NCBI GenBank assembly: GCA_958431225.1 | Contig: OY288107.1 | Span: 1,949,501-2,013,500, forward strand | DNA: 64,000 nt | Source of the DNA: an uncultured Alphaproteobacteria bacterium | Lineage (GTDB): Bacteria; Pseudomonadota; Alphaproteobacteria; Puniceispirillales; UBA1172 | Reading direction: 5' to 3' | Shown here: in pieces, positions 485 to 56,888 of the stretch | Layout of the letters: every line of letters begins with the position of its first letter | Numbering within the stretch: the first letter of the stretch is position 1 | Made by a program: the position numbers and the translations under genes | Notes under the pieces: generated by a model | The model's database searches: none | What the model saw: the letters and a program-made list of their open reading frames with translations, nothing else | What the model was told of the DNA's origin: nothing

Positions 485-511
485 ATCATAGCACTGCGCC
501 AGCATCGTCAA
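485..511 (-). promoter_or_regulatory. Candidate leaderless promoter of dnaB
   Basis: On the minus strand TTGACG (506-511) and TATGAT (485-490) are separated by 15 bp, a little shorter than ideal. Only six bases lie between the -10 element and the dnaB ATG at 478, so transcription would start at or next to the start codon. No Shine-Dalgarno is visible upstream of the ATG. Confidence 0.45.
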
Positions 512-572
512 AAAGCATTAACAAGCCATAAATTGCCTGTGAATATCGGTAATATCGGTGATAACGTTCTAC

Positions 573-1397
573 TTATTTCACAGGCTCGTCATCTTCAGCC
601 GCATCATCCGCCTTATCGTCGTTTTTGGCATCGCTTTCAGGCGCGCTTTCGGCTTTTGCCTTCGCTTTCGGCTTCGCTTTTGCTTTCGCTTTTGCTTTCG
701 GTTTAGCCTTTGCCTTCGCTTTTGGCTTTGCCTCAACCTCAACCTCCGCCTCAACCTCCGCCTCAACTTCCGCCGCAACCTCAACCTCCGCTTCATCTAA
801 CACCGGCACTTCCGGCGGCGCAACGCCTTCTTCAAGCATTTCTGCGGCACGTGCTTCGGCTGCTTGGGCGGCTTCGGCGGCTTCTAGGCGTTCGCGTTCG
901 GCGACATCGCTGACGATGGCGCGTCCTAATTTCAGCTGTTCTTTGGCTTCATCTTGGCTGCGGGCGATATTGACGGTGATTTCCACGGCGACTTCGGGAT
1001 GCAACACCACGCGCACTGGAAAAATGCCAAGGGTTTTGATGTTGGTATTGAGGTCAATCTGCCCACGCGCAAGGGTAAATCCCGCCTCGGTGCTTGCCGC
1101 GACAATATCCCGTGCCGATGCCGAACCATAAAGCTGCCCCATCTCGCTAGCCGCACGGATGAGCGTCACCGACAGATCTTCCATTGTCTTAGCCATTTTC
1201 TCGGCTTCGCCTTTGCGTTTGAGATTGTCGGCTTCAAGCTGTTTCTTTTGTGCCTCGTAATGTTCTTTATTGGCTTTGGTGGCGCGGAGTGCCTTGCCTT
1301 TGGGGAGCAGAAAATTGCGCGCATAGCCGGATTTGACAGTGACCAAATCGCCCATCTGCCCCAATTTTTCGACACGTTCAAGTAAAATGATTTCCAT
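573..1397 (-). CDS. rplI: 50S ribosomal protein bL9 with long charged tail
   Basis: Large-subunit ribosomal protein L9. The first ~150 residues match the family: MEIILLERVEKLGQMGD, then the VKSGYARNFLLPKGKA motif of the N-terminal RNA-binding domain, a long connecting helix and the C-terminal domain (GQIDLNTNIKTLGIFPVRV). The 274-residue length is far above the usual ~150 (about 190 in many alphaproteobacteria). After residue ~190 comes an acidic Glu/Val/Ala stretch, then an Ala-Lys-Pro repeat tract, then an Asp/Glu-rich end. The AAAGGGG Shine-Dalgarno fits the start at 1397. Transcribed with rpsF and rpsR. The reading frame is uninterrupted through the tail, so it is likely translated. Confidence 0.95.
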   Translation of the reverse strand: MEIILLERVEKLGQMGDLVTVKSGYARNFLLPKGKALRATKANKEHYEAQKKQLEADNLKRKGEAEKMAKTMEDLSVTLIRAASEMGQLYGSASARDIVAASTEAGFTLARGQIDLNTNIKTLGIFPVRVVLHPEVAVEITVNIARSQDEAKEQLKLGRAIVSDVAERERLEAAEAAQAAEARAAEMLEEGVAPPEVPVLDEAEVEVAAEVEAEVEAEVEVEAKPKAKAKAKPKAKAKAKAKPKAKAKAESAPESDAKNDDKADDAAEDDEPVK

Positions 1398-1413
1398 GAG
1401 TTAGTCCCCTTTA

Positions 1414-1668
1414 TTAAGACACAACAAACGGCATCAAGGCTAAATGCCTTGCGCGTTTAATGGCGGTCGCGAGTTCGCGTTGTTTTTTCGCCGATACCGC
1501 AGAAATACGCCTCGGCACAATTTTCCCACGCTCGGTGGTATAGCGTTGGAGCAATTTGACATCTTTATAGTCAACTTTCGGCGCGCTCGGGTGCGAAAGC
1601 GGGCAGGATTTATGGCGCTTATTAGACTGACGCCGTGCCGAAGGGCGGGTGATTTCAAGCTGGGTCAT
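1414..1668 (-). CDS. rpsR: 30S ribosomal protein bS18
   Basis: 84-residue small-subunit protein that binds next to S6 on the platform of the 30S subunit. The body, including [19 protein letters not shown] and [21 protein letters not shown], is diagnostic of S18. A longer open frame upstream is an out-of-frame read of the rpsF tail; the start at 1668 (MTQLEIT) gives the normal family length. It overlaps the end of rpsF by 14 bases, suggesting translational coupling of two proteins that dimerise in the ribosome. The 16-base gap to rplI keeps all three genes in one operon. Confidence 0.96.
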
Positions 1669-2179
1669 GATTATCCTCACTATCGGGGTTTTCTGTTGTT
1701 TCGGGGGTTTCGGGGGTTTCGCTAGCAACCTCAACCGCCTCAACCTCAACCTCATCATCAATATCATCAACAGGGGCATCAACCTCATCAACCTCATCAG
1801 TAGCGGGGGCAGGGGCATCATCATCAGGGGCGGGGGCATCATTACCCGCACGTTCGCGGGTGTTTTTCATCATGATGGAAGGTTCGGGGTCAATGGCATC
1901 AATGCTGGTGATGAGCGCGCGCAACACATCCTCATTCAGCCCAAGCCGGCGGTCTAGTTCCGCCACCGCAGCCCCATCGGCTTCAAAATTGAGCATGACA
2001 TAATGCCCTTTGCGATTTTTCTTAATTTTATAGGCCATGGTTTTCAGCCCCCAGTATTCCTGTTTCTTCACCGCGCCTTTGTGGTCGGTGATGATGGCGC
2101 AGAATTCTGCGGTGATGGAATCAACCTGAGCTGACGAAAGATCTTGGCGTATAATAAACACGCATTCATAAAGTCGCAT
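1655..2179 (-). CDS. rpsF: 30S ribosomal protein bS6 with acidic C-terminal tail
   Basis: Small-subunit protein S6, partner of S18. Residues 1-100 carry the family core: [15 protein letters not shown], the [28 protein letters not shown] block and a C-terminal helix ([10 protein letters not shown]). The 2179 start (174 residues) is preceded by a strong AAGGGGGATGAT Shine-Dalgarno; a longer upstream frame lacks S6 similarity. After residue ~115 there is a highly acidic, Pro/Thr-rich tail ([20 protein letters not shown]). S6 usually ends at 95-150 residues, and some bacteria add glutamates post-translationally at the S6 C terminus, so a genetically encoded acidic tail is notable. First gene of the operon rpsF-rpsR-rplI. 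Confidence 0.95.
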
Positions 2180-2287
2180 ATCATCCCCCTTCTGGATCAT
2201 GCTATGCCCTGTCGGACACAATGAGCCGATGGCAGAACCACCAGCAAGAGGCAAGAAAACCACCATTGGCTTTCCCTATTGTCGAGG

Positions 2288-2315
2288 GGTATAACATATT
2301 CTCAACAAATTGCAA
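2288..2315 (-). promoter_or_regulatory. Candidate promoter of the rpsF operon
   Basis: On the minus strand TTGCAA (2310-2315) and TATACC (2288-2293) are separated by 16 bp, about 108 bases upstream of the rpsF start. This is the best sigma-70-like pair in the divergent gap between rpsF and the aldolase gene. Ribosomal operons often have long leaders; no S6:S18-binding leader structure could be demonstrated by eye. Confidence 0.4.
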
Positions 2316-2381
2316 CCCCTATTGATTCCGCTTGCCAAAAACCGCGAAAAAGCGTAGCAATGCGCGAGAAAGGATAAATAA

Positions 2382-3290
2382 ATGCTAAAAGGTTTGATTA
2401 CACCGATTCTAACGCCGTTCAATGATGATCTGACGATTGCCGATGATTTGTTGTTGGCACACGCCGAATGGCTTTTGGGGGATGGCGGCTCGGCTGGCTT
2501 GGCGTTATTCGGCACTACAGGGGAGGCGCTTTCCGTGGGCATCAAGGAACGTATGGCGAGCCTTGATATGCTCATCGCCAAAGGCATTGACCCTAAACGC
2601 CTCATTGTCGGCACTGGGCTAAATAATATGCACGATACGGCGGAATTGACCCGCCATGCTTGCGCGCATGGCTGTTTGGGGGTGATGATGCTACCGCCAT
2701 TTTATTTCAAAAACGCTAGCGATGATGGACTTTACCGCTATTATGCTGAGGTGATTAAAAGGGTGGCGCATCCTGACCTCAAAATTTACCTCTACCACAT
2801 CCCGCAAGTGGCGGGTGTCGGGTTGAGCCTTGATTTAGTCGCGCGCCTAACCGCCGATTTTACCGAAGTGGTGGGGATTAAAGATTCCTCGGGCGATTGG
2901 CAAAATACCGAAAAATTATTGGCGATTGAGGGCTTAATCGTCTATCCCGGCGCAGAAACCCCGGTGATTGACGCCATCAAATTGGGCGCGCCGGGCTGTA
3001 TTTCCGCCACCGGCAACATCAATAGCCCCGGCATAGCCGAAGTCATCCGCCTCTGCCATGCGGGGGATTATGAGGGCGCGGAAAAAAACCACATCCGCAC
3101 CCGCGCCATCCGTGCTTTATTCCAAGACTACGCGCCGATTCCCGCACAAAAAGCCTTGCTCGCGCGTTGGCAGGATGCGCGCTATAATAATCTGCGCCCG
3201 CCTTTGCTGGCTTTGGATGCGGATAAGGCAACCGCACTAGAACGCGCGCTTATTGATGATTTTGGCTTAAACGCCAAAGGTTTTAGTTGA
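2382..3290 (+). CDS. DapA/NanA-family class I aldolase (pyruvate-dependent)
   Basis: 302-residue TIM-barrel lyase of the dihydrodipicolinate synthase / N-acetylneuraminate lyase family. Visible landmarks are the FGTTGE substrate-binding loop near residue 43, the YLYHIP motif with the catalytic Tyr near residue 137, and the Schiff-base Lys in VGIKDSSGD near residue 163. The motif after Tyr reads YHIPQVAG rather than the YNVPSRTG of true DapA, so the Arg that binds the substrate carboxylate is missing. A different 2-keto acid aldolase (for example hydroxy-oxoglutarate, KDG or sialic-acid type) is more likely than lysine biosynthesis. Shine-Dalgarno AGAAAGGA precedes the ATG. It lies divergently from rpsF and just upstream of nuoA, with no obvious link to either. 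Confidence 0.8.
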   Translation: MLKGLITPILTPFNDDLTIADDLLLAHAEWLLGDGGSAGLALFGTTGEALSVGIKERMASLDMLIAKGIDPKRLIVGTGLNNMHDTAELTRHACAHGCLGVMMLPPFYFKNASDDGLYRYYAEVIKRVAHPDLKIYLYHIPQVAGVGLSLDLVARLTADFTEVVGIKDSSGDWQNTEKLLAIEGLIVYPGAETPVIDAIKLGAPGCISATGNINSPGIAEVIRLCHAGDYEGAEKNHIRTRAIRALFQDYAPIPAQKALLARWQDARYNNLRPPLLALDADKATALERALIDDFGLNAKGFS

Positions 3291-3314
3291 AATAGATGGG
3301 CGTTATCTGCTACA

Positions 3315-3338
3315 ACCATAGGCGACACCATAGGCAAC
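3315..3338. repeat. 12-bp imperfect tandem repeat before nuoA
   Basis: Two adjacent copies, ACCATAGGCGAC and ACCATAGGCAAC, lie 11 bases before the nuoA ATG at 3349 and just before its AGGGAA ribosome-binding site. Function unknown. Confidence 0.5.
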
Positions 3339-3348
3339 AGGGAACAAA

Positions 3349-3711
3349 ATGCCATATCTTGCAGAATATCTACCCATCGCGCTATTCCTCGGCATTGCCA
3401 TCGGGCTTTCCGGGGCGTTTGTGATTGGCGCGTTATTGGTGGGGGCGCAGCGTCCTGATGCTGAAAAATTGAGCGCGTATGAATGTGGCTTTGAAGCCTT
3501 TGACTCATCGCGCCAACGTTTTGACATTCGCTTTTATCTGGTGGCGATTCTGTTCATTATTTTTGATTTAGAGATAGCGTTTTTATTCCCGTGGGCGGTG
3601 GCTTTAGGCGATATTGGTGCTTTTGGCTTTTGGTCCATGGTGGTGTTTTTATTGGTGCTGACCATCGGTTTTATCTATGAGTGGAAAAAAGGAGCCCTTG
3701 ATTGGGATTAG
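3349..3711 (+). CDS. nuoA: NADH-quinone oxidoreductase subunit A
   Basis: Small membrane subunit (120 residues) of proton-pumping complex I, placed at the junction of the membrane arm and the quinone site. Three hydrophobic segments are visible, and the loop [23 protein letters not shown] contains the conserved Cys of the quinone-site loop. The stretch [15 protein letters not shown] is diagnostic of NuoA. First gene of an uninterrupted 14-gene nuo operon; the next gene starts 5 bases after its stop. Confidence 0.97.
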
Positions 3712-3715
3712 CGGT

Positions 3716-4243
3716 ATGGGAAAAGTAATGCTACCCACGGAAAAAAGCCAAGATGCGCTATTGGGTGCGGTGGCGCATGAGTTCAACAATAATGGTTTCG
3801 TCGTAGCCCAAGCCGACAAGCTATTCAGCTGGGCGCGCAGTGGTTCGTTGTGGCCGATGACATTTGGGTTGGCATGTTGTGCGGTGGAAATGATGCACTC
3901 GGCGGCGTCGCGTTATGATATGGACCGCTATGGGATGTTGTTCCGCCCAAGCCCCCGCCAATCCGATGTCATGATTGTCGCTGGCACGCTCACCAATAAA
4001 ATGGCGCCCGCCTTACGCAAAGTCTATGACCAAATGGCAGAACCGCGTTGGGTGGTGTCTATGGGGTCGTGTGCGAATGGGGGGGGCTATTACCATTATT
4101 CGTATGCGGTGGTGCGGGGGTGCGACCGCATTGTGCCGGTGGATGTGTATGTTCCCGGCTGTCCGCCCACGGCTGAGGCGCTCATTTATGGGCTGTTGCA
4201 ATTACAGAAAAAAATCCGCCGCACCACCACCATCGCCCGCTAA
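3716..4243 (+). CDS. nuoB: NADH-quinone oxidoreductase subunit B (cluster N2)
   Basis: Peripheral subunit holding the terminal [4Fe-4S] cluster N2 that passes electrons to quinone. Cluster ligands are visible as the tandem Cys pair in [12 protein letters not shown], the Cys of [10 protein letters not shown] and the Cys of [12 protein letters not shown] use the ATG at 3716, just after the nuoA stop (175 residues, a normal length); an ATG at 3677 would add 13 residues and overlap nuoA by 35 bases. An eight-G run occurs inside the GGG codons of the GSCANGGG motif. Confidence 0.96.
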
Positions 4244-4262
4244 TACCTAATGAGAAACCCCA

Positions 4263-4934
4263 ATGCCCGCCGATAACCAAACCCCATCTGAAATCACGCG
4301 CTCTTATGATGAGCAAAAGCAACATTTCCAAGATATTCTGGCAACCCAAGCCGATGCCATCAGCATTTTTCGCGGCGAGATCACCATCCGCGTGCCGTTG
4401 GAACAATTACACCGCGCCTTAACCCGCCTCAAAGACGAGTCGGGGGGCGAATTCACGCAACTTTCGGACATCACAGCGGTGGATTTCCCCGAACGCAAAC
4501 AACGTTTTGAGCTCATCTATCAGCTCCTCAGCGTCAAATGGAATCAACGCGTGCGCTTGATTACAAGTTTGGGCGAGGGCGAAATCGCGCCTTCGGTGAC
4601 CGCACTTTTCACCTCAGCAAATTGGGCAGAGCGCGAGATTTGGGATATGTTTGGCATTTTCTTTGACGGGCATGGAGATTTAAGACGCTTGCTCACGGAT
4701 TATGGCTTTGAAGGGCATCCATTACGCAAAGATTTCCCGCTTACCGGACACGTAGAAGTACGCTATGACCCCGATGAGGGGCGCGTGGTCTATGAAGCCG
4801 TGGAACTCATGCAAGAATACCGCGATTTTGATTTCGAAAGTCCCTGGGAAGGCATAAAGATGGAAGGCGCACAAGATGCCCTAAAACAAAACGATGCCCC
4901 GCGCCAAGATGCGATTGAGAATACCGATGACTGA
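4263..4934 (+). CDS. nuoC: NADH-quinone oxidoreductase subunit C
   Basis: 223-residue hydrophilic subunit of the complex I quinone module, without redox centres. The signature near residue 120, [19 protein letters not shown] followed by [24 protein letters not shown], is the 30-kDa subunit motif. The C-terminal ~25 residues are a variable hydrophilic tail. nuoC and nuoD are separate genes here, as in other alphaproteobacteria, not the fused nuoCD of enterobacteria. Its stop overlaps the nuoD start by eight bases. Confidence 0.96.
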
Positions 4935-6105
4935 TCCAACCATAAAACCCCTAACCATGAATTTCGGCCCGCAACACCCGGCGGCGCATGGGGTATTGCG
5001 CCTAGTGCTGGAAATGGATGGTGAGGTGATTGAACGCGCCGACCCGCATATAGGCTTGCTACATCGTGGCACCGAAAAATTGATTGAGCATAAAACCTAT
5101 TTACAGGCTTTGCCGTATTTTGACCGCCTAGATTATATCGCCCCGATGAATCAGGAACACGCTTTCGCCCTCGCCATTGAAAAATTGCTCCAACTAGAAG
5201 TCCCTAGGCGGGGGCAGTTTATCCGTGTGCTTTATTGCGAAATCGGACGCATTTTGAATCACCTGTTGAATCTAACCACTTTCGCCATTGATGTCGGGGC
5301 GATGACGCCGTTATTGTGGGGTTTTGAAGAACGCGAGCATTTATTGGAATTTTATGAACGCGCATCAGGGGCAAGATTCCACGCCGCCTATTTCCGCCCC
5401 GGCGGGGTGCATCAAGACCTCCCCGATGGCTTACTAGAAGACATAGATAAATGGGCGGATCGTTTCGGCAGTTTCGTTGATGATATGGAAGGGTTATTAA
5501 CCGAAAACCGCATTTTCAAACAGCGCACCGTGGATATAGGCGTGGTCGGTTTAGACGAGGCACTGGATTTAGGCTTTTCGGGTCCGTGCCTGCGCGCATC
5601 GGGTTTGCCGTGGGATTTACGCAAAACCCAGCCCTATGATGTCTATGATGAATTAGACTTTGACATCCCCACGGGTAAGACCGGCGATTGCTATGCGCGT
5701 TATCTGGTGCGGGTGGAAGAAATGCGCCAATCCGTGCGCCTCATCAAACAATGCATTGAGAAAATGCCATCAGGTGCGGTGATGACAGAAGACCACAAAA
5801 TCACCCCCCCCCGCCGTGATGACATGAAAACATCCATGGAAGCCATGATAAGCCATTTCAAACTCTACACCGAGGGCTTTCACACCCCCGAGGGCGCAAC
5901 CTATACCGCCGTTGAAGCCCCCAAAGGCGAGTTCGGCGTCTATCTGGTATCGGATGGCAGTAATAAGCCTTACCGCTGCCGCATCCGCGCCCCGGGGTTT
6001 TATGCCATGGCGGCGATGGATCAATTATCGCGCGGGCATATGCTAGCCGATTCGGTGGCGATTCTAGGCTCGCTAGACGTGGTATTCGGGGAGATTGACC
6101 GATGA
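4927..6105 (+). CDS. nuoD: NADH-quinone oxidoreductase subunit D
   Basis: 49-kDa subunit (392 residues) that forms most of the quinone-binding cavity. It begins [25 protein letters not shown]; the GPQHPAAHG loop carries the conserved His near quinone. Other landmarks are [14 protein letters not shown] and [17 protein letters not shown]. The start at 4927 gives the usual N terminus; an in-frame ATG at 4894 inside nuoC would add 11 atypical residues. A run of nine C residues occurs at codons for ITPPRRDD (about 5804-5812), a possible slippage site in an otherwise intact frame. Confidence 0.97.
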
Positions 6106-6719
6106 GTATCGCCCGCCGTATCGCCGACGACCAACCCACGCATTTTGCCTTTTCTGCGGAAAATAAGCAGAAAATCAAAGTGATTCTAGCCAAATACCCC
6201 AAATCCCACAAAAGCAGTGCAGTATTGCCGTTGCTAGATTTAGCCCAACGCCAACACGATAATTGGCTCCCCACCAAGGCGATTGAGGAAGTCGCAAAAA
6301 TCTGCGAGATGCCCGAAATGCGCGTATTTGAGGTGGCAAGTTTTTATACTATGTTCAATCTGCGCCCGGTGGGTAAGTATTTCATCCAAGCCTGCGGCAC
6401 CACCCCGTGCTGGCTCCGTGGCAGTGATGCGGTCATGCAGTGCATCAAAGACAAACTCAACATCACATCGGGCGAGACGAGCGCATGCGGGAATTTCACG
6501 CTACTTGAAGTGGAATGTTTAGGCGCGTGTGTCAATGCGCCGATGGTGCAGATCAATGATGATTATTATGAAGATTTAGACTATAACAGCATGGCAAAAC
6601 TCATCAACCAACTGCAACAAGGCGAGACGCCCCAATCTGGCTCAATGGCAGGACGCCAAGGCTCAGAACCCGCATCAGGTGCAACGAGCCTGAAACAAGG
6701 AGATAGCGATGCTTCATGA
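6102..6719 (+). CDS. nuoE: NADH-quinone oxidoreductase subunit E
   Basis: 24-kDa thioredoxin-like subunit with a [2Fe-2S] cluster next to the flavin subunit. Ligands are visible as CGTTPC in the first pair and [10 protein letters not shown] in the second. 205 residues, of which the last ~35 form a Gln/Ser/Gly-rich hydrophilic tail not needed for the fold. It shares ATGA with the nuoD stop and overlaps nuoF by 11 bases, indicating tight translational coupling. Confidence 0.96.
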
Positions 6720-8004: not shown

Positions 8005-8005
8005 C

Positions 8006-10111: not shown

Positions 10112-11115
10112 TTGAATTTTTTAACGCTTACATTTGGGATTTGATCTGGACGCTATTAAAAATTTTCGCGGTCATCGTGCCGTTACTGATTGCGGTGGCG
10201 TATCTGACTTTGGCAGAACGGCGCATCATCGGCTTCATGCAATTAAGGAAAGGCCCCAATGTCGTCGGCCCGTTCGGTCTATTGCAACCTTTCGCCGATG
10301 CGCTCAAATTATTATCCAAGGAAACCATATTACCATCGGGCGCATCCAAAACCGTGTTCGTCATAGCACCGATGCTAACCTTCGTGCTGTCGCTAGTGGC
10401 ATGGGCGGTGATTCCCTTCGGCGAGGGGTTAGTCATTGCCGATGTCAATATCGGCATTTTATATCTTTTCGCCATTTCATCGCTAGGGGTCTATGGCGTC
10501 ATCATGGCGGGGTGGGCGAGCAATTCCAAATATCCATTTTTGGGGGCAATGCGTTCGGCGGCACAGATGATTTCGTATGAAGTATCACTAGGTCTAGTCA
10601 TCATCACCGTCATCATGGCGGCAGGTTCATTGAATTTGAGCGATATCGTGCGCGCCCAACAAGGCTTATGGTTCTGCATCCCGCTATTCCCGATGTTTGT
10701 GATTTTCTTCATCTCCACCTTGGCAGAAACCAATCGCGCGCCGTTTGACCTGCCCGAGGGCGAATCTGAATTGGTGGCTGGCTATTTCGTTGAGTATTCG
10801 TCCATGTCCTTCGCGCTATTTTTCTTGGGCGAATATGCCAATATGATTCTGATGAGTGGCATGACGACAACGCTATTCCTAGGCGGTTGGTTGCCGCCGT
10901 TTGATGTGCCGATTCTCAATGCGATTCCTGGGGTGGTGTGGTTCGCTTTGAAAACGGCATTAGTATTATTCGTGTTCCTATGGGTGCGCGCCACCACGCC
11001 CCGTTATCGCTATGACCAATTAATGCGCCTAGGTTGGAAGATATTTTTGCCATTCACTTTATTTTTTGTCGTGCTAGTGGGCGGTGTGTTATTAGGGTTT
11101 GGGCTGTTGCCATAA
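10108..11115 (+). CDS. nuoH: NADH-quinone oxidoreductase subunit H
   Basis: 335-residue membrane subunit that connects the quinone cavity to the proton channels. Typical motifs are [32 protein letters not shown] in the first cytoplasmic loop and [21 protein letters not shown] in the acidic quinone-access loop. About eight hydrophobic segments are apparent. The start codon lies within the nuoG end (ATG at 10108, nuoG stop at 10109-10111). Confidence 0.97.
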
Positions 11116-11130
11116 AGGAAGGGTTTATAG

Positions 11131-11619: not shown

Positions 11620-11628
11620 GAACCGCCG

Positions 11629-18994: not shown

Positions 18995-20646
18995 ACTGGA
19001 AACCCAATGAACTATTATTCGTCCCCCTAGGCGGCGCCGGTGAAATTGGTATGAATGTCAATCTCTATCACTATCAAGGCAAATGGCTGATGGTGGATTT
19101 AGGCATCAATTTCCCCGATGAAAGCATGCCCGGGGTGGATGTAGTCCTCCCCGATTTGCGCTTTTTGGACGATAAAATTGATGACATAGCCGGGCTAGTA
19201 TTAACCCACGGGCATGAAGACCATTTGGGTGCGGTGCCGTATCTGTGGCGGAAATTGCGCTGTCCGGTTTATGGCACGCCTTTTACGCTGGCATTGTTGC
19301 GCGCAAAATTGAAAGAACACGGGCTGGCAAGTAAAGTCCCGCTAAACCCCATGCCCTATAACACCCCCACCGACATCGCGCCATTTAGCGTTGAGATGCT
19401 GGCACTAACACATTCCATCCCCGATGCGGCGGGGTTGATTATCTCGGTGGCGGGCAAACAGATTTTCCACACAGGCGATTGGAAATTTGACCCCTCCCCA
19501 CAACTAGGCGGCGTATCGGATATAGAACGGCTGAAAGCATTAGGCGATGCCGGGGTGCTGGCGATGGTGGGCGATTCCACCAATGCCATGGTGGAAGGCA
19601 CAACCCCTAGCGAAGAGACCGCCAAGGCAGGCTTGCTGGAAGCCATAAAAAAAGAAAAAGGGCGGGTCGCCATCACGTGCTTTGCCTCCAATGTCGCACG
19701 GCTCAATTCATTGATTGAGGTAGCGGGGCAGGTGGGGCGTGAGGTGATGTTGGTGGGGCGCGCGCTCAATCGGGCGGTGCTGGCGGCGGAGGAAAGCGGT
19801 TATCTCAAAGACTGGCCTAGATTGTTAGATGTTGAAGATTTTGAGAGCGTGCCACGCGAAAAATTACTGCTCATCGCCTCAGGCTCACAAGGCGAGGCGC
19901 GTTCCTCCATGACGCGTATAGGCATGGGAACGCATCACCTTGTCGGGCTGGAATCTGGGGATTGCGTGCTGTTTTCCTCGCGCGAAATTCCCGGCAACGA
20001 ATCGGCAATCGCCAAAGTCGCCGGGGCGTTAGTGGCACGTGGGATCAAGGTGATTGATGCCGATGACGCGCCGATTCATGTGTCGGGGCATCCGGCAAGG
20101 GGCGACCTCGTGGCAATGTATCAAATGATTCGCCCGCAAATAGCCATCCCGGTGCATGGCACCCCCCGCTATATCCAAGCCCATGTAGAACTCGCACAAA
20201 ATTGCCAAGTGCCGTATGTGGCAGAGATGCAAAACGGACAAGTGATCAGGCTCCACCCCGCCCCGCCAAAACGCATCGGTGAAGCCGAAATAGGTATGCA
20301 GACCCGCGAGGGCAAAGACATCGTCCCCCTTTATGGTAGCGGGCTAAAAGGCAGGCGCAAATTGATGGAACACGGCACGATAAGCGCCAGCCTAGTGCTT
20401 GATGGCAAAGGACGCCTAGTCGCCAGCCCGCTTATCCACCAAAGCGGTGTCATGGATGACGAAAAAGCCAGCGATTTCACAGCCGAAGCCATGTTAGCCC
20501 TAGAAGACGCGTGCGCCGAACTCAACAAAAATATCCGCGATAATGATGCACAGGTGGAAAGCATTGTCGCCAAAACCCTGCGTAGTCTCGCCAAAAAAAT
20601 GGCAGGGAGACGTCCGGTGGTGCATATCCATATTTTGCGGGTTTGA
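18991..20646 (+). CDS. rnj: Ribonuclease J
   Basis: 551-residue metallo-beta-lactamase/beta-CASP ribonuclease for rRNA maturation and mRNA decay. The zinc motif LTHGHEDHLGAVPYLW is near residue 72, HTGDWKFDPSP follows near 163, and the beta-CASP motifs include ITCFASNVARLNS and a later HVSGHPARGDLVAMYQMIRP with IPVHGTPRYI. The C-terminal ~100 residues match the RNase J dimerisation domain. Alphaproteobacteria carry RNase J together with RNase E. Overlaps the coaX stop by four bases. Confidence 0.95.
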   Translation: MNWKPNELLFVPLGGAGEIGMNVNLYHYQGKWLMVDLGINFPDESMPGVDVVLPDLRFLDDKIDDIAGLVLTHGHEDHLGAVPYLWRKLRCPVYGTPFTLALLRAKLKEHGLASKVPLNPMPYNTPTDIAPFSVEMLALTHSIPDAAGLIISVAGKQIFHTGDWKFDPSPQLGGVSDIERLKALGDAGVLAMVGDSTNAMVEGTTPSEETAKAGLLEAIKKEKGRVAITCFASNVARLNSLIEVAGQVGREVMLVGRALNRAVLAAEESGYLKDWPRLLDVEDFESVPREKLLLIASGSQGEARSSMTRIGMGTHHLVGLESGDCVLFSSREIPGNESAIAKVAGALVARGIKVIDADDAPIHVSGHPARGDLVAMYQMIRPQIAIPVHGTPRYIQAHVELAQNCQVPYVAEMQNGQVIRLHPAPPKRIGEAEIGMQTREGKDIVPLYGSGLKGRRKLMEHGTISASLVLDGKGRLVASPLIHQSGVMDDEKASDFTAEAMLALEDACAELNKNIRDNDAQVESIVAKTLRSLAKKMAGRRPVVHIHILRV

Positions 20647-20671
20647 CTTTACCCCTTTATGTGTATAAAGT
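20643..20671 (+). promoter_or_regulatory. Candidate leaderless promoter of the YHS gene
   Basis: TTGACT at 20643-20648 lies at the very end of rnj. A -10 could be TAAAGT (20666-20671, spacer 17) or TATAAA (20664-20669, spacer 15). Either would start transcription within a base or two of the ATG at 20679, which lacks a Shine-Dalgarno. The ATG is 36 bases after the start of the -35, as at ihfA, tpiA and ftsB. Confidence 0.4.
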
Positions 20672-20678: not shown

Positions 20679-21131
20679 ATGATGAAATGGTTAAAAATAT
20701 GCGTGTTGTTGCTTTGCGCCGTCAGCCCGGTGCTAGCCGATGACTATCATTGGAATCTGGACGCCGATGGCATCACCATTTATGAACATGACGCGGTGGC
20801 ATATTTCACGCTCCCGGAGGGCAGTGATGCCGTCAAAGGCAAAAAGGAATTCTCATACCAATGGGAAGACGGCTTATGGTATTTTGCCAATGCCGAAAAT
20901 CTAGCAACCTTCAAAGCCGACCCAACCAAATACATTCCGCAATATGGCGGTTTCTGTGCCTATGCGGCGGCTAGGGGGTATTTCGCACCGATTGACCCTG
21001 ATGCGTGGTCTATTGAAAATGGTAAATTGTATCTCAACTATTCAAAACGCATCCGCAATAAGTGGCTGAAAAATGTTGATGCGGAAATTGCTAGTGGCGA
21101 TGCCAACTGGCCCGATTTGCAAAAACCTTAA
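20679..21131 (+). CDS. Exported YHS-domain protein
   Basis: About 150 residues. The N terminus MMKWLKICVLLLCAVSPVLA is a convincing Sec signal peptide with cleavage after ALA-like residues, so the mature protein is periplasmic. The mature part carries a YHS domain: HDAVAYFTLPEGSDAVKGKKEFSYQWEDGLWYFAN followed by YIPQYGGFCAYAAARGYF. YHS domains are often metal-associated, but the function of this exported subfamily is unknown. A TTG 36 bases upstream opens the same frame but would remove the signal-peptide logic, so the ATG is preferred. It ends at the first base of the epimerase gene. Confidence 0.75.
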   Translation: MMKWLKICVLLLCAVSPVLADDYHWNLDADGITIYEHDAVAYFTLPEGSDAVKGKKEFSYQWEDGLWYFANAENLATFKADPTKYIPQYGGFCAYAAARGYFAPIDPDAWSIENGKLYLNYSKRIRNKWLKNVDAEIASGDANWPDLQKP

Positions 21132-28287: not shown

Positions 28288-28420
28288 TGCTTTTTCATTG
28301 CACTAATGCGGGGCTTTGTTTATACAACAGCAAATTTGAACATATTTGGCTGGTTGGCGCATTGGGGGGTCAGCTAGTCGGCTTGGCGCAACCCCCCGTT
28401 AAAAATAGGACTAACCAACC

Positions 28421-30962: not shown

Positions 30963-31406
30963 TCAAGGCTGATTCGCGCTTGGGGCGGAGGTTAGGTTGT
31001 TGAAAATCTGGTCAAATAGCCCGTAAGTATCGCCGGGGGTTGGGGTGGCGCTATCGACATAGAACACCTCACGCCCGTCGCTTTCATCGGTGAATCGGAT
31101 TGATTCGAGACGCCCCGCATCATCAAAAGCAAAGGCAACAATCGTACGCGTTTGCATTTCAATTTTGCGTCCGGGTTTAGCAATCATGGATTGCGCGATA
31201 TAATAAATGCGCCCGGAATCAAACGCCCCACTTGCCGAAGGCTTGCCGAAAAGTGCCTCTACCTCAATACGGCGGGTGCTACCGATTTGCAGCTGGTCAA
31301 GCGCGCTGGCATCAAGGCTATTGCCGTGCAGGCGCGTCTCGCTACCGCAAGCCGCCACCGCCACCATCAGCCCCAAACCAAGAATTGAATGAAATAATCT
31401 TTTCAT
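30963..31406 (-). CDS. bamE: Outer-membrane assembly lipoprotein BamE (SmpA/OmlA)
   Basis: 147-residue lipoprotein. The signal peptide MKRLFHSILGLGLMVAVAAC ends in a lipobox with the lipidated Cys at position 20. The mature part shows the BamE fold signature: LDQLQIGSTRRIEVEALFGKPSASGAF and RTIVAFAFDDAGRLESI. BamE is part of the BAM complex that inserts outer-membrane proteins. Divergent from the bc1 chaperone gene, the usual alphaproteobacterial arrangement. Upstream lies a promoter-like pair whose start would fall next to the ATG; no Shine-Dalgarno is visible. Confidence 0.92.
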   Translation of the reverse strand: MKRLFHSILGLGLMVAVAACGSETRLHGNSLDASALDQLQIGSTRRIEVEALFGKPSASGAFDSGRIYYIAQSMIAKPGRKIEMQTRTIVAFAFDDAGRLESIRFTDESDGREVFYVDSATPTPGDTYGLFDQIFNNLTSAPSANQP

Positions 31407-31414: not shown

Positions 31415-31443
31415 TCCATAAGCCAATTTTCGCGCTATTGCAA
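31415..31443 (-). promoter_or_regulatory. Candidate promoter of bamE
   Basis: On the minus strand TTGCAA (31438-31443), 17 bp, then TATGGA (31415-31420), leaving eight bases to the bamE ATG at 31406. The -10 matches the consensus weakly. Consistent with a leaderless transcript. Confidence 0.35.
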
Positions 31444-35430: not shown

Positions 35431-35459
35431 TTGACGCGCCCGAATTTTATGCGTATTTT
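35431..35459 (+). promoter_or_regulatory. Candidate leaderless promoter of ihfA
   Basis: TTGACG (35431-35436), 17 bp, TATTTT (35454-35459). Seven bases separate the -10 from the ATG at 35467, which has no Shine-Dalgarno. An AT-rich block with A and T tracts (35411-35429) lies immediately upstream and could act as an UP element. Confidence 0.55.
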
Positions 35460-35466: not shown

Positions 35467-35754
35467 ATGAAACGTTCTTTAATCCGTGCTGATATTGCTG
35501 AAGCGATCTACCGTCAGGTGGGGCTATCGCGCAATGAATCGTCCGACATGGTCGGGACGATTATTGAGCAGATTAGCCAGACGCTTGACGCTGGCGAACA
35601 GGTAAAAATCACCTCTTTCGGCAGTTTCCTCGTGCGTAACAAAAAAGAACGCGTCGGGCGCAACCCGAAAACCGGACAAGAAGTCCCCATCACCCCAAGA
35701 CGCGTGTTATCCTTCCGCCCCTCGCATATCCTGCGCAAAAAGGTGAACTCATAG
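35467..35754 (+). CDS. ihfA: Integration host factor subunit alpha
   Basis: 95-residue HU/IHF-family DNA-bending protein. Recognised by LIRADIAEAIYRQVGLSRNES, ITSFGSFLVRNKKERVGRNPKTG, with the intercalating Pro, and ITPRRVLSFRPSHILRKKV. The start at 35467 gives the standard alpha-subunit N terminus; upstream in-frame codons overlap the promoter. IHF architecture affects replication, recombination and transcription. Nine bases separate it from the merR gene. Confidence 0.93.
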   Translation: MKRSLIRADIAEAIYRQVGLSRNESSDMVGTIIEQISQTLDAGEQVKITSFGSFLVRNKKERVGRNPKTGQEVPITPRRVLSFRPSHILRKKVNS

Positions 35755-38107: not shown

Positions 38108-38476
38108 ATGGACGCAATCATCTATAAAATCTGCGGGGCAGGGGCGTGGCGTGATGCTGTGGCGTCTGGCGTTTATGCGGGGTCTGAGGTGGATCGCCGC
38201 GATGGCTTTATCCATTTTTCCACCGCATCACAACTGGGCGAAACCGCACGGCTTCATTTTGCCCATCAAGCCGATTTGGTGTTGGTAGCGGTGGCATGGG
38301 CGGGGCTGGATGTGCGTTTTGAAGAATCAAAAAGCGGGGGGCGAGGCGGGGCATTATTCCCGCATCTTTTCGGCACGCTCCCCATAGAACACGTGCTTTG
38401 GGTGGCGGAATTGCCCCTAGATAAAAATGGCATCCCCCGAGTTGAAGCAGTGCTAGCCAGCCACGATAAAACGTGA
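38108..38476 (+). CDS. DUF952 family protein
   Basis: 122 residues beginning MDAIIYKICGAGAWRDAV. The block DGFIHFSTASQLGETARLHF and the late LFPHLFGTLPIEHVLWV are typical of DUF952, a small alpha/beta fold with an ADP-ribosyltransferase-like shape and unknown function. TAAGG lies five bases before the ATG. A perfect TTGACA at 38071 is 37 bases upstream but no good -10 accompanies it. Divergent from the dehydrogenase gene. Confidence 0.85.
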   Translation: MDAIIYKICGAGAWRDAVASGVYAGSEVDRRDGFIHFSTASQLGETARLHFAHQADLVLVAVAWAGLDVRFEESKSGGRGGALFPHLFGTLPIEHVLWVAELPLDKNGIPRVEAVLASHDKT

Positions 38477-45818: not shown

Positions 45819-45829
45819 GGAGGGGGTGG

Positions 45830-46759: not shown

Positions 46760-46764
46760 GATTT

Positions 46765-50141: not shown

Positions 50142-50169
50142 GGTTTTCGTCCTATCCGTTATCAAAACA

Positions 50170-50198
50170 TTGCCATTGAGAGTAAAACATAGCATAAT
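50170..50198 (+). promoter_or_regulatory. Candidate leaderless promoter of tpiA
   Basis: TTGCCA (50170-50175), 17 bp, CATAAT (50193-50198). Seven bases then lead to the ATG at 50206, which has no Shine-Dalgarno. The layout matches that of ihfA and ftsB exactly (ATG 36 bases after the first base of the -35). Confidence 0.55.
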
Positions 50199-50205
50199 CA
50201 AATGT

Positions 50206-50913
50206 ATGATTATAGCAAGTAATTGGAAAATGAATTTAAACCGCCAATCGGCATCGGCTTTGTTGAAAGCCATGGCGGGGGAGGCGGTCGATTCTGCAGT
50301 AAAACGCCTAGTGTTCCCAAGTTTCACGCTATTAGAATCCGCCCGCCAAGTAATAGGGCAGTCGGGCATAGAACTAGGCGGACAAGATTGCCACCACGAG
50401 GGCAAAGGCGCACACACAGGCGACATCTCGGCAGAAATGCTAGTAGAGGCAGGGTGCAGTTGGGTATTGCTAGGACATTCCGAACGCCGCCAAAACCACA
50501 ATGAAAGCGGGGAGATAATCGCCAAAAAATTCGCGGCGGCGGAAGCGGCAGGGCTATCCGTAATGCTATGCGTAGGCGAAAACCGAACCGAACGCGAAAA
50601 CGGCAAAGCGGTAGAATCGGTATTAAAAATGCTAAAAACCTCCATGCCATCAAAAACAGACGCAAATTTCGCCATAGCCTACGAACCCGTCTGGGCAATA
50701 GGCAGCGGAAAAACCCCAACCCCCAAAGACATAACCACCATGCACCAAGCCCTCCACAACGCATTAGGGGCAGGGGTGGCAGTGCTATATGGCGGGTCAG
50801 CAAATGCCGAAAACGCCGCCGAGTTGATGGCACTAGACGGCGTAGATGGGCTACTAATAGGCGGAGCAAGCCTAGACGCCGATGCTATCAATGCCATTAG
50901 TAAATTGCGGTAA
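50206..50913 (+). CDS. tpiA: Triosephosphate isomerase
   Basis: 235-residue TIM-barrel enzyme interconverting glyceraldehyde-3-phosphate and dihydroxyacetone phosphate. Catalytic residues are visible: Lys in ASNWKMN, His in VLLGHSERR and Glu in FAIAYEPVWAIGSGKT, with the phosphate loop YGGSANAENAAEL and GLLIGGASL. The 50206 ATG gives the standard N terminus (MIIASNWKMN); the frame remains open 66 bases upstream. Shorter than many TIMs (~250) but complete. Confidence 0.96.
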   Translation: MIIASNWKMNLNRQSASALLKAMAGEAVDSAVKRLVFPSFTLLESARQVIGQSGIELGGQDCHHEGKGAHTGDISAEMLVEAGCSWVLLGHSERRQNHNESGEIIAKKFAAAEAAGLSVMLCVGENRTERENGKAVESVLKMLKTSMPSKTDANFAIAYEPVWAIGSGKTPTPKDITTMHQALHNALGAGVAVLYGGSANAENAAELMALDGVDGLLIGGASLDADAINAISKLR

Positions 50914-50923
50914 GATGATACGG

Positions 50924-50947
50924 AATTTACCTAGCGTAAATTTTTTT
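50924..50947 (+). terminator. Likely tpiA terminator
   Basis: AATTTAC and GTAAATT arms (7 bp) enclose CTAGC and are followed by a T tract (50941-50947). The stem is AT-rich, hence only moderate confidence. Confidence 0.45.
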
Positions 50948-50992
50948 CATTTTTTGCTTGCCACCTATAACAAACCTCTATATCCCCGAATG

Positions 50993-51097
50993 TGCGACAA
51001 AATTTTATAAGGAACCCCTTTCGTCGGGTTGCCTACCCAATAGAACACCTTCGGGAAATAAGTAGGATTTGTAAAATTCCTTATAAATTTTGTCGCA
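50993..51097. repeat. 105-bp inverted-repeat element upstream of the lipoprotein gene
   Basis: The left arm TGCGACAAAATTTTATAAGGAA (50993-51014, first 20 shown by position) and right arm at 51077-51097 are reverse complements with a single one-base length difference in the T tract. The 62-base interior contains GGGT/ACCC and CCTAC/GTAGG complementary pairs, so the whole unit could fold as a long stem-loop. A third, direct, imperfect copy of the arm lies at 51130-51150, ending in the ribosome-binding site of the next gene. No target-site duplication is visible. Could be a MITE-like remnant, a recombination site or a structured leader RNA. Confidence 0.7.
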
Positions 51098-51159
51098 AAA
51101 CAGCCCGGCCCTCTGGTCGTGGCTACACTTTGACAAAATTTGCTTAAGGAGTAAGTCCG

Positions 51160-52296
51160 ATGAAGAATAGAACCGAAGAAAATCGCAGAAATTTAGAAAT
51201 GATTGCGCCAACATGGACAATGTTGGGGCTGGCTTTAGCTGCTTGTGGCGGTGGGGGTGGAGGAGGTGGTGGAATTTCGGTTACCATACCACCGCCCATC
51301 AATTCTGGTCCGCCAGTTCCTAATGCTAGGATACCAAATATTCAGGAGGCTCCTCGGGGGAGTCCGCCGATTATTTTGACCGAAGGGCAGAATATGATTC
51401 CTGATGTGTATTATCGGTATGAATCTGCTAATCTTGGTGGCGGGACGGTTATTCATCATCCTCATCCTAGCACTGCGGTGGCTACTATTCCTGATATTAC
51501 TGTTGATGCTAGTGGCGCTGGTAATGTAGGTCAGGTAGCGGTTGAAGTTAATGGGTTAGTTTTGACAGATAGTGAACGATTTGACGGTATTAGTTTGAAT
51601 ATTCGGGTGGAGATAGATGATTATATTACTCATTATGATGGGCTAACTGTGGATGAAATAGTGGATGATATAGTAGATGATTCGGCTTCTTCGATTCGTG
51701 GTGATGCGGTTTCTTTGTCGTCTGCATGGACAATGAGATATTCAAATGGAAATGTTAGGGGGAGTGCTGAGATTAATGTCGCTGGTGCGCCTCAAAATGA
51801 TGGGTCTATTGATGTTATCGTGTCAATTTATGAGGATGTAAATGGAGATCTTTATTTTTCGTCTGGTAGTGGTCGGACACTTCTTGGTGATTTGGGGTAT
51901 TCTTTTAATTTACCAGAGCTAACGCCCGGTGCTACCGAGTTGGCTGTAAATATCTTGGGAATACCCGAGGGCAACGGGTACGATGTCCCGGTAATCTTTA
52001 CCAATGTTGCCAGAGATGGTTTCGGCAATGTTAAGATTGTCGCAGATGATGGTGCAATTGATTCGGCACCCGAATTATTACGCATTGATGCTGACGGCAT
52101 TACTGGCAACGCTTATAGCACAGGGCATGTTTGGTATAGGGACGATGTTGCAATTGCAGGTACGGGACATACCTATATGGCGACTGAAGCTGGGCGTTAT
52201 CATGCTGAGGTGGCTATTGATTTAGATGCTGACGGGAATCCTGATATTTTGGTTGAAACGCTCGCGGTTGTAGTGTCGGCGGCGGATATTGTGTAG
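51160..52296 (+). CDS. Poly-glycine lipoprotein of unknown function
   Basis: 378 residues with a membrane-targeting segment near 18-28 (TMLGLALAAC) that ends in a lipobox with a candidate lipidated Cys at 29, directly followed by nine Gly residues. The segment sits unusually far from the N terminus behind a charged stretch. A proline-rich spacer follows, then beta-rich repeats with Asp/Gly turns, ending with an Ig/PKD-like module (RIDADGITGNAYSTGHVWYR, then GTGHTYMATEAGRYHAEV and DLDADGNPD). It has an AAGGAG site. Codon use is visibly more AT-rich (GAT, GTT, ATT, GGT favoured) than both neighbours, suggesting horizontal origin or a distinct expression class. It interrupts the usual tpiA-secG adjacency. 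Probably a surface or periplasmic protein. Confidence 0.7.
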   Translation: MKNRTEENRRNLEMIAPTWTMLGLALAACGGGGGGGGGISVTIPPPINSGPPVPNARIPNIQEAPRGSPPIILTEGQNMIPDVYYRYESANLGGGTVIHHPHPSTAVATIPDITVDASGAGNVGQVAVEVNGLVLTDSERFDGISLNIRVEIDDYITHYDGLTVDEIVDDIVDDSASSIRGDAVSLSSAWTMRYSNGNVRGSAEINVAGAPQNDGSIDVIVSIYEDVNGDLYFSSGSGRTLLGDLGYSFNLPELTPGATELAVNILGIPEGNGYDVPVIFTNVARDGFGNVKIVADDGAIDSAPELLRIDADGITGNAYSTGHVWYRDDVAIAGTGHTYMATEAGRYHAEVAIDLDADGNPDILVETLAVVVSAADIV

Positions 52297-52346
52297 TTTG
52301 GTAATGTGCTTTGTTGGCATTTACCCCCCCACACCAAAAAATCGCC

Positions 52347-52370
52347 CCGCCGCGTTCGGCGGTAATTTTT
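52347..52370 (+). terminator. Intrinsic terminator after the lipoprotein gene
   Basis: CCGCCG (52347-52352) and CGGCGG (52357-52362) form a GC-rich stem with a CGTT loop, followed by TAATTTTT. Confidence 0.65.
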
Positions 52371-52396
52371 ATCTAGCATTTCCCGCAACAATCCAT

Positions 52397-52402
52397 TATA
52401 GA
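52397..52402 (+). promoter_or_regulatory. Candidate -10 element of secG (leaderless)
   Basis: TATAGA eight bases before the secG ATG; the -35 region is weak. No Shine-Dalgarno precedes the ATG. Confidence 0.3.
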
Positions 52403-52410
52403 CTCATCCC

Positions 52411-54391
<1,981 letters not shown>

Positions 54392-54402
54392 GGAGGCGCA
54401 TT

Positions 54403-55245
54403 ATGAATCATCCCCTAAAACTCAACAACATCACCATCAGCAATGATGCGCCTATGGTTTTAATCGCCGGGCCTTGCGCCATTGAAGGCCGCGACCATGC
54501 CCTAGATATGGCAAGCGCGCTCGCGGAAATGGCGGCGCATCTAAATCTGGGCTTCATCTATAAATCGTCTTTTGATAAAGCGAATCGCACCGCGCTAAAA
54601 TCCGCGCGTGGGGCAGGGTTGGAAAAAGGTTTGGAAATTTTAACAGAGGTCAAAAAGCAGGTGGGATGCCCGGTATTGACCGACGTGCATCTCCCCGACC
54701 ATTGCGCTGAGGTGGCGGAGGTGGTGGATGTTTTACAGATTCCCGCCTTCCTATGCCGTCAGACCGATTTGCTAGTCGCGGCGGCACAAAGCGGACGTGC
54801 GGTAAATGTCAAAAAAGGGCAGTTCCTCGCCCCGTGGGATATGGTGCATGTGGCAGAAAAATTGGCGGAAGTCGGCGATGGACGCATCATGCTAACCGAA
54901 CGCGGCACCAGTTTTGGCTATAATACCCTCATCAACGACATGCGCGCTTTACCGCAACTTGCCGCCACAGGCTATCCGGTAATTTTTGACGCCACGCATT
55001 CGGTGCAACAACCCGGCGGGTTAGGCGGGGCTTCAGGCGGACAAAGGCAATTCGTGCCAACACTAGCCCGGGCAGCGGTAGCGATTGGCGTCGCCGGCGT
55101 CTTCATAGAAACCCACCAAACCCCCGATAACGCACCGTCTGATGGGGCGAACATGGTGCCATTAAATGAAATGCCAAATCTGTTGCATCAACTAACGGCA
55201 CTAGATAAATTGACGAAAGCAACCTTAAAAGATGAAGCACCATGA
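54403..55245 (+). CDS. kdsA: 2-dehydro-3-deoxyphosphooctonate aldolase (KDO-8-phosphate synthase)
   Basis: 280-residue enzyme condensing PEP and arabinose-5-phosphate for LPS inner-core synthesis, implying a Gram-negative outer membrane. Motifs are [62 protein letters not shown] and, later, [12 protein letters not shown] (landmarks). A strong AAGGAGG ribosome-binding site precedes it; ATGA overlap with eno. Confidence 0.96.
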
Positions 55246-56558
55246 GCGCGATTCTAAACATTCACGCACGGCAAATTTTGGACAGCCGCGGCAACCCCAC
55301 CGTGGAGGTTGATGTCGCACTAGAAGACGGCGTCATGGGGCGGGCGAGTGTGCCTTCGGGGGCTTCCACTGGGGCTTTTGAAGCCGTTGAACGCCGCGAT
55401 GGTGATATGAAAAAATTTCACGGAAAGGGCGTTGAAGGCGCGGTGGCAAGCATCAATGATGAAATCGCCAAAACCTTACTAGAATGGGATGCTTTTGACC
55501 AACACGGCATCGACCAAGCCATGATTGAACTTGACGGCACGGAAAATAAATCACGCCTCGGGGCGAATGCGATTCTGGGGGTGAGCCTTGCCGTATGCCG
55601 TGCCGCCGCTATGTCCTCGGGGCAACCCCTTTGGCGTTATATTAGCAGGACACTCGTGCCGGACATGCACGCCCCAAAAACACCCACACACATAATGCCG
55701 ACACCGATGATGAATATCATCAATGGCGGTGCGCATGCCGATAACGCCCTAGATGTGCAGGAATTTATGATTATGCCGGTGGCGGCGGAAAATTTTGCCG
55801 ATGCCGTGCGCGTAGGGGCAGAGATTTTTCATGCCTTGCGCGCATTATTGAAAGAAAAAGGATTATCGGTTGCAGTAGGCGATGAAGGCGGTTTCGCCCC
55901 CGCCATTAACGATACCGCCCAAGCCATAGATTACATTCTGGCGGCGACAGAATCGGCTGGCTATAAACCCGCCGAGGACATCATGCTGGCACTAGACGCC
56001 GCCGCTAGCGAGTATTTTCGCGGCGGTAAATACCACCTTGAAGGCGAGGGCAAGTCCCTGACTAGTGGCGAGATGCTGGCATATTGGCAAAAATTGGTGG
56101 ATGCTTACCCGATTTGTTCCATTGAAGACCCGCTTGCCGAAGATGATTGGGATGGCTATGTTGCGCTGACCGCAGAATTGGGGGGCAGGGTGCAGCTCGT
56201 GGGGGATGATTTATTCGTCACCAATCTTGACCGCCTCAATAAAGGCATCGCGCGCAAAGCCGCCAATGCGATTTTGATTAAGGTCAATCAAATCGGCACA
56301 TTGACCGAAACCATGAACGCCATCATGCGGGCGCAAAGTGCGGATATGGGGGTGGTCATCTCGCATCGTTCTGGCGAAACCGAGGATGATTTTATCGCCG
56401 ATTTGGCGGTCGCTACCAATGCCGGACAGATAAAAACCGGCTCATTATCGCGCTCTGACCGCACGGCAAAATACAACCAACTCATCCGCATTGAAGAAAT
56501 GTTGGGGCATAATGCTAGCTATGCGGGCAAGCGGTTCTTGCCGGCAAAAGCGAAATAA
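55242..56558 (+). CDS. eno: Enolase
   Basis: 438-residue glycolytic enzyme converting 2-phosphoglycerate to PEP. Motifs are [46 protein letters not shown] with substrate His/Glu, [13 protein letters not shown] with Mg2+ ligands and [16 protein letters not shown] with the catalytic Lys; [20 protein letters not shown] follows. Full length and intact. Confidence 0.97.
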
Positions 56559-56561
56559 CGC

Positions 56562-56590
56562 TTGACGCGGGGCGACGGATTTGATTCAAT
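56562..56590 (+). promoter_or_regulatory. Candidate leaderless promoter of ftsB-like gene
   Basis: TTGACG (56562-56567), 17 bp, TTCAAT (56585-56590), seven bases, then the ATG at 56598. An alternative ATG at 56589 lies inside the -10, so if the promoter is real the start must be 56598. Confidence 0.5.
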
Positions 56591-56597
56591 GTGCGCT

Positions 56598-56888
56598 ATG
56601 TTGGCTATACGGAAAAAATTATTGCTGGTTTTTAACCTGCTTTTGCTAGTGATTATGGGCAATTTTCTCATGAGCGCGCTGACGGATTGGCAAGCTATGC
56701 GGGTGCAGACAGGCGAAATTATCGCCCTTGAAGCCGAACAAAATAATCTCAAAACCATTGAAGCGCATTTGCAAAATAAAGTCAGCCTATTATCGCAACA
56801 AGAAATTGATGCCGATATTCTGGGCGAATTGGCGCGGCGCAAAAACGCGCTCTATGGTGCGGATGAGACGGTGATTTTTACGGATTAG
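56598..56888 (+). CDS. ftsB: Septum formation initiator (FtsB/DivIC) family protein
   Basis: 96-residue bitopic protein with a short cytoplasmic N terminus, one membrane segment (LLLVFNLLLLVIMGNFL) and a coiled-coil periplasmic region rich in Glu/Leu (EIIALEAEQNNLKTIEAHL). FtsB/DivIC links FtsL and FtsQ in the divisome. Position between eno and pdhA is standard in alphaproteobacteria. The start at 56598 fits the leaderless promoter; 56589 would add three residues. Confidence 0.85.
   Translation: MLAIRKKLLLVFNLLLLVIMGNFLMSALTDWQAMRVQTGEIIALEAEQNNLKTIEAHLQNKVSLLSQQEIDADILGELARRKNALYGADETVIFTD

Follow-up and report, generated by a model that had tools for sequence, protein, structure and literature searches.

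Promoter-like elements abutting start codons suggest leaderless mRNAs at core genes of a probable SAR116 bacterium

Seven genes in a 64,000-nucleotide stretch of DNA from an uncultured alphaproteobacterium of the marine order Puniceispirillales (probably SAR116) carry promoter-like elements whose -10 box ends only a few bases before the ATG, raising the question of whether they are transcribed into mRNAs without a 5' leader, and of how such a layout comes about. The genes are dnaB, a YHS domain-containing protein gene, bamE, ihfA, tpiA, secG and ftsB. The stretch, hereafter the window, comprises positions 1949501-2013500 of the single contig (C1; GenBank OY288107.1, assembly GCA_958431225.1) of the source genome, G000, which has 2,325,691 bases and is 99% complete.

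Leaderless mRNA from σ70-type promoters that abut the start codon, together with a history of leader loss, is in our judgement a likely answer. In this mechanism, a σ70-type -10 box would end 6-8 bases before the ATG, RNA polymerase would start on, or a base or two from, the A of the ATG, and the resulting mRNA, lacking a leader, would be engaged by ribosomes at its 5'-terminal AUG without a Shine-Dalgarno (SD) site, as known leaderless mRNAs are. Initiation of this kind is established for leaderless mRNAs. The layout itself would arise when the DNA separating promoter and start codon, both of them conserved, is lost; such a loss would be common to two families of the order at ihfA and would have occurred in the G000 lineage at secG, bamE and ftsB.

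Promoter layout at the seven sites

A preliminary description of this DNA gave motifs, spacings and ATGs for all seven sites, and each matches the sequence letter for letter; all seven start codons are ATG. Specifically, the putative ihfA promoter (TTGACG-17-TATTTT, positions 35431..35459, plus strand) ends 7 bases before the ATG at 35467, which opens a gene (35467..35754, plus strand) matching NCBIfam integration host factor alpha with 130.5 bits. On the minus strand, the putative dnaB promoter (485..511; TGCTATGAT) comprises TTGACG at 506-511, a 15-base spacer and TATGAT at 485-490, 6 bases from the ATG at 478; the N-terminal part of dnaB occupies 2..478 on the same strand and the gene continues beyond the window (Pfam PF00772, 85.7 bits; NCBIfam replicative DNA helicase). 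The secG gene (52411..52731, plus strand; Pfam SecG, 71.8 bits) has TATAGA at 52397..52402, 8 bases before its ATG at 52411, while bamE (30963..31406, minus strand; Pfam BamE, 42.3 bits; no NCBIfam match at 1e-8) has TTGCAA-17-TATGGA at 31415..31443, 8 bases before its ATG at 31406. The ftsB/divIC-like septum formation gene (56598..56888, plus strand; Pfam DivIC, 27.3 bits, slightly under the 28.9 cut-off) has TTGACG-17-TTCAAT at 56562..56590; its ATG at 56598 follows after 7 bases, and a GATTC (GANTC) extends into the -10. The same 7-base distance is found at tpiA (triosephosphate isomerase; 50206..50913, plus strand, ATG at 50206; Pfam TIM, 259 bits), which has TTGCCA-17-CATAAT at 50170..50198, and at the YHS gene (20679..21131, plus strand, ATG at 20679; NCBIfam NF041384, 139 bits), which has TTGACT-17-TAAAGT at 20643..20671, the -35 overlapping the stop codon of the upstream open reading frame. 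The -10 of the YHS gene is an addition to the preliminary description, which had given none.

The -10 is a strict TAnnnT at dnaB, the YHS gene and ihfA (3/7) and one base off at bamE, tpiA, ftsB and secG (4/7). The distance of 36 bases from the start of the -35 to the ATG holds, as had been claimed, at ihfA, tpiA, ftsB and the YHS gene. Two further claims need qualification. The seven genes had been described as starting transcription units, which is doubtful for the YHS gene and for ftsB; these lie 32 and 39 bases behind co-directional genes and therefore need not begin a unit. In addition, SD sites had been ascribed to genes within operons nearby, and this is only partly so, with 15 of 37 in-operon genes against 5 of 25 first genes in the window, counted from the starts of a coding-only caller that misplaced bamE, ihfA and ftsB.

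Those caller errors, and the loss of tpiA in the first pass, would favour an explanation in which the ATGs themselves are misplaced, the true starts lie elsewhere and the mRNAs are ordinary leadered ones. Against it, these ATGs coincide with ortholog N termini in the alignments of ihfA, of secG and of most tpiA rows and, among congeners, of bamE and ftsB, and we consider misplaced starts very improbable.

Conserved and altered spacing in relatives

The clearest history is that of ihfA. Among 29 usable loci of the order (the best 30 of 61 genomes, from families f1 and f3, less locus L059), TAnnnT lies at offset 5-8 in 27 (22 counts exactly at 6), the offset being the number of bases between the end of the -10 and the start codon; 27 have TTGAC between -38 and -34 relative to the ATG, and an SD is found in none. 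In other families of the class, 27 loci were usable (the best 29 new matches of 101 class genomes, a non-random draw, less L271 and L285): the layout is found in none, TTGAC lies at -70 to -47 in 20, and 18 have an SD. The most economical explanation is loss of a leader of roughly 17-28 bases in an ancestor of f1 and f3; since the rows of the order come from these two families, the data do not place this loss at the base of the order.

At dnaB, by comparison, TAnnnT lies at offset 5-8 in 9 of 18 loci of the order (1.8 in shuffled sequence), one of which has an SD. A class-wide draw, non-random and made up of the best 29 new matches of 100 class genomes, gives 13 of 29 (2.8 in shuffled sequence) with an SD in 2, or 12 of 28 without the same-order locus L288. 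The layout of dnaB is probably old in Alphaproteobacteria. In the relatives shown, no counterpart of the -35 TTGACG with its 15-base spacer was apparent; many of their rows have TGCTA, resembling an extended -10 (judged by eye, uncounted), and the dnaB promoter reads as an extended -10. We also considered whether the TAGG-like boxes of dnaB might be SD sites and held this unlikely, as the T, the A and the last T recur and the middle varies (by eye). Given these conserved layouts, leaderless initiation is the best reading for ihfA and dnaB.

For secG, bamE and ftsB, the promoter could be located in congeners with a 29-31-base template taken from the G000 promoter (promoter shuffle p <=0.003 for each gene). 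The distance from the -10 to the ATG is 8 bases at secG in G000 versus 24-26 in six congeners, 8 at bamE versus 27-28 in six congeners, and 7 at ftsB versus 30-33 in five of six congeners, the ftsB region of G003 ending before the promoter. The protein starts align with those of the congeners at all three genes, so that the difference is one of leader length, the congeners having leaders 16-26 bases longer than those of G000. SD-like stretches in these longer leaders are weak where present (by eye), and the change would accordingly be from leadered, not always SD-led, to leaderless. The four other rows of the same family have a TATAAA or TATAAC box at secG, 24-39 bases ahead of the ATG (by eye), which makes the G000 state of secG likely to be derived; outside the genus, the promoter match is weak for bamE and ftsB. 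Apparently, then, the leaders of secG, bamE and ftsB were lost in the G000 lineage from behind a promoter that it has in common with its congeners. Separately, at the congener loci L159, L161 and L163 the -10 of secG is followed immediately by an in-frame ATG, in a position where its transcription is improbable, and 24 bases farther along stands another ATG.

In four congeners (L104, L106, L107 and L109), the ftsB promoter contains a pair of GATTC (GANTC) sites: the first follows the -35 and the second extends into the -10, and it is this second site that G000 retains (window 56562-56590). A CcrM-like methyltransferase gene with a RAMA domain lies at L221:5992-7071 (530 bits, below the NCBIfam cut-off of 830). 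Taken together, the GANTC sites and this gene make control by methylation possible.

The remaining two sites are less informative. An ortholog of the YHS gene occurs in 1 of the 19 other genomes searched. The tpiA gene itself is present in 20 of 20 genomes; a separate tpiA locus search gave 11 loci, mostly from other phyla, and was not used. Divergent from tpiA is a gene with candidate starts at 50195, 50273 or farther out, the one at 50273 overlapping the tpiA coding region.

Excess of adjacent -10 boxes in half of the genome

The preliminary description inferred that the organism uses leaderless mRNAs widely for core genes, and pointed to the genome-wide distribution of -10 distances as a way to find out. 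We examined 1.2445 Mb of G000 (53% of the genome; 969 called genes). The scan took in every plausible in-frame ATG of 490 first genes of operons and sought promoters scoring >=7, with 200 dinucleotide shuffles as a control. At offset 6-8, there are 33 matches (31 genes) versus 11.2 +/- 3.5 in shuffled sequence, and none of the 200 shuffles reaches 33. The counts are 10, 15 and 8 at offsets 6, 7 and 8, whereas each of the offsets 2-5 and 9-11 has 3; a second rise follows at offsets 12-13 (10 and 8), and a broad one at 19-30 that leadered genes would predict. Out-of-frame ATGs in the same regions, scaled, give 16, and an earlier version of the scan gave 33 versus 7.6 shuffled.

A mixture model that learns its own motifs was also fitted to 497 first genes. 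It recovered an SD of AGGAGA, a -10 of TATAAT and a -35 of TTGCCA with a 17-base spacer. With its parameters held fixed for calibration on 15 sets of shuffled upstream sequence, it labels 48 of the 497 genes leaderless-like at posterior 0.5, versus 32.3 (25-43) shuffled, and 34 at posterior 0.7, versus 16.4 (10-27). Its offset profile stays below one gene for every offset from 2 to 5, then jumps to 24.8 at offset 6. The raw figure of 48 genes (10% of first genes) was dropped as an estimate because shuffles give 32.3. The true excess is about 16-22 genes in half the genome (16-18 by the model, about 20 by the scan), or 3-4% of first genes, a genuine excess and a small minority; weak promoters escape both estimates.

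SD usage was compared in the same material. Among first genes, an SD is present in 1 of 37 with TAnnnT at offset 5-8 versus 153 of 460 without (p = 2e-5); among in-operon genes, the corresponding figures are 4 of 13 and 156 of 359 (p = 0.4). By the model, an SD is absent in 15 of 42 genes with a leaderless posterior >0.6 versus 49 of 421 others (p = 1.4e-4). With the ihfA and dnaB loci above, the 1 in 37 bears out the claim that SD sites are missing at these layouts.

Some of these features extend to G006, the one congener sampled at length, for which 362 ortholog pairs were compared with common starts set blind to signals, omitting pairs with method-dependent starts and genes with a posterior of 0.2-0.5. 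The G006 orthologs of model-called genes have an SD in 2 of 18 cases versus 43 of 90 for the others (p = 0.004), and a higher -10 score at offset 5-8 (p = 0.009; p = 0.2 at control offsets).

Several results count against leaderless initiation on this scale, or at particular genes. At bamE, a further in-frame ATG stands 12 bases upstream in four congeners and would make their leader shorter, and the tpiA promoter was not found in orthologs (11 rows including G000). About two thirds of the 48 model calls are expected from shuffled sequence, so that individual genes on the candidate list are unreliable. The model profile is equally high elsewhere (25.7 at offset 16) and in a shuffled run (31.1 at offset 8), which makes the profile weak evidence alone. 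A raw TAnnnT histogram of G000 with coding-only starts has no obvious peak. The G006 scan has no significant peak either (14 versus 10.4 shuffled, with 40 of 200 shuffles as high), a de novo mixture model run on G006 yielded no clear promoter, and strict TAnnnT in the G006 orthologs of model-called genes falls at 5 of 18 versus 9 of 90 (p = 0.056); in G007 (2 versus 1.8) and in G016, from another family of the order (4 versus 2.1), the samples are too small. ATG starts are found in 42 of 42 genes with a posterior >0.6 versus 385 of 421 others (p = 0.06). The model also assigns an SD posterior of 0.95 to bamE, where GGAA is scored as an SD, and of 0.78 to dnaB. Finally, a -10 box next to the ATG partly excludes an SD by space alone; the SD difference among in-operon genes is small, and crowding out therefore seems insufficient to account for the depletion in first genes, though the in-operon sample (n=13) is itself small.

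Could the boxes, then, be chance matches in AT-rich DNA, with transcription starting farther upstream and unstructured, SD-less leaders of the S1 type? Leadered initiation that lacks an SD has been discussed in several phyla (PMC5397173), the match at any single site is weak, and chance would yield most of the model calls. Against chance stand the matches at offset 6-8, which exceed both the shuffles and the neighbouring offsets 2-5 and 9-11, and the TTGAC at -38 to -34 in 27 of 29 ihfA loci of the order, and we regard this explanation as improbable. What the counts sustain of the claimed wide use is its kind, through ihfA, dnaB and the small excess; "widely" is not sustained at 3-4% of first genes, with G006 lacking a significant peak. 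Core genes, as claimed, do occur among the candidates.

The candidate list includes, besides the window genes, matches to the NCBIfam families of yggS, acetoacetate-CoA ligase, sdhC, ispDF, recG, thyA, uvrC, mutY, mnmG, recQ, ispH and uvrB, those of mutY and ispDF falling below the full-protein cut-off. The list has an apparent skew to DNA replication and repair, with dnaB, ihfA, recG, recQ, uvrB, uvrC, mutY and thyA on it, though it is uncalibrated per gene. An extra leaderless-like candidate in the window is a DUF952 gene (38108..38476, plus strand; posterior 0.91 from the uncalibrated model), whose G007 ortholog has TAGGTT 6 bases before the ATG and whose G006 ortholog lacks the layout. Upstream of G000:C1:1071470 (minus strand; L227), TTTTTTGTGCTATA occurs twice in tandem, and the second copy has at its end a -10-like box that leaves 6 bases to the ATG. 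An upstream block of the H+-pyrophosphatase gene (TTAAAAATAGG.CTAA; window about 28399-28420), near the ATG, is common to G000 and G006. The G000 genome yielded no 16S rRNA match; the examined stretches contain 7,500 N bases, perhaps masked rRNA.

Direction of change and known leaderless systems

The three leader losses proposed for the G000 lineage allow two interpretations. Leader length may simply drift both ways, the three cases being the picks of a reader attentive to tight spacing, with no directional trend. The sites were indeed found by seeking the layout, and first genes of G000 and G006 use SD sites at an equal rate (61/163 and 59/163). A genome-wide leader-shift test, an alignment of 163 first-gene pairs of G000 and G006, was rejected as evidence for its unequal stretches (70 and 110 bases) and for many scores at the chance threshold; 84 of 163 pairs lay at or above the shuffle threshold, and shifts >=8 were longer in G006 in 31 pairs versus 8 in the opposite direction. 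Against drift stand the single direction of 3 of the 7 sites and the numbers of genes hit by the scan, 31 of 490 in G000 versus 13 of 401 in G006 (p = 0.04, background uncorrected). We give undirected drift about an even chance. The bolder interpretation, that many leaders are being lost gene by gene in the G000 lineage, leaving the species enriched over its congeners and running against a proposed bacterial macro-trend towards loss of leaderless genes, is tentative and seems to us rather doubtful.

Leaderless mRNAs are known from several bacteria, with which the present case can be compared. Caulobacter crescentus has 375 leaderless mRNAs, or 9.6% of coding sequences (PMC4117421). G000 would resemble it in being an alphaproteobacterium with a minority of such genes and, here by prediction, a transcription start at the initiating ATG. 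The Caulobacter set was mapped by global 5' RACE, RNA-seq and ribosome profiling, whereas G000 is known from sequence alone; G000 also belongs to another order, has a smaller detectable excess, and offers evolutionary polarity at single genes. The parallel with Caulobacter drawn in the preliminary description thus fits in kind but is not borne out in extent. Sinorhizobium meliloti (171 leaderless transcripts, all AUG; PMC3616915) and Zymomonas mobilis (119 leaderless of 2,675 TSS-gene pairs, TSS denoting transcription start site; PMC7566282) likewise have a minority class within Alphaproteobacteria, in their case from experimental maps. In Deinococcus-Thermus, TAnnnT a few bases before the open reading frame is a spacing-dependent leaderless promoter, experimentally shown for about a third of genes in D. 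radiodurans (PMC12340547); the TAnnnT near the start is similar here, while the phylum differs and the G000 evidence is computational.

The closest computational precedent is Zheng et al. 2011 (PMC3160421), whose TA-led genes were, like ours, recognised by a -10-like signal computed roughly 10 bases ahead of the start and a dinucleotide-shuffle test. That study records leaderless genes for 2 of 117 alphaproteobacterial genomes and notes that its SD/TA exchange distance is uninformative on direction, unlike the single loci described here, which suggest a change from leadered to leaderless. Searches of one open-access library, judged by their listings, turned up no transcription-start map or leaderless study for SAR116, and nothing beyond Zheng et al. 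on leaderless starts at these genes or on their gain among orthologs.

The leaderless kind is thus already known, and what is added is the host order and a readable direction of change. A marine order, probably SAR116, joins the lineages with probable leaderless core genes, and ihfA, secG and ftsB are cases in which the direction from leadered to leaderless would be readable from sequence. Furthermore, start prediction that is blind to this layout can misplace starts, as the coding-only caller did at 3 of the 7 sites.

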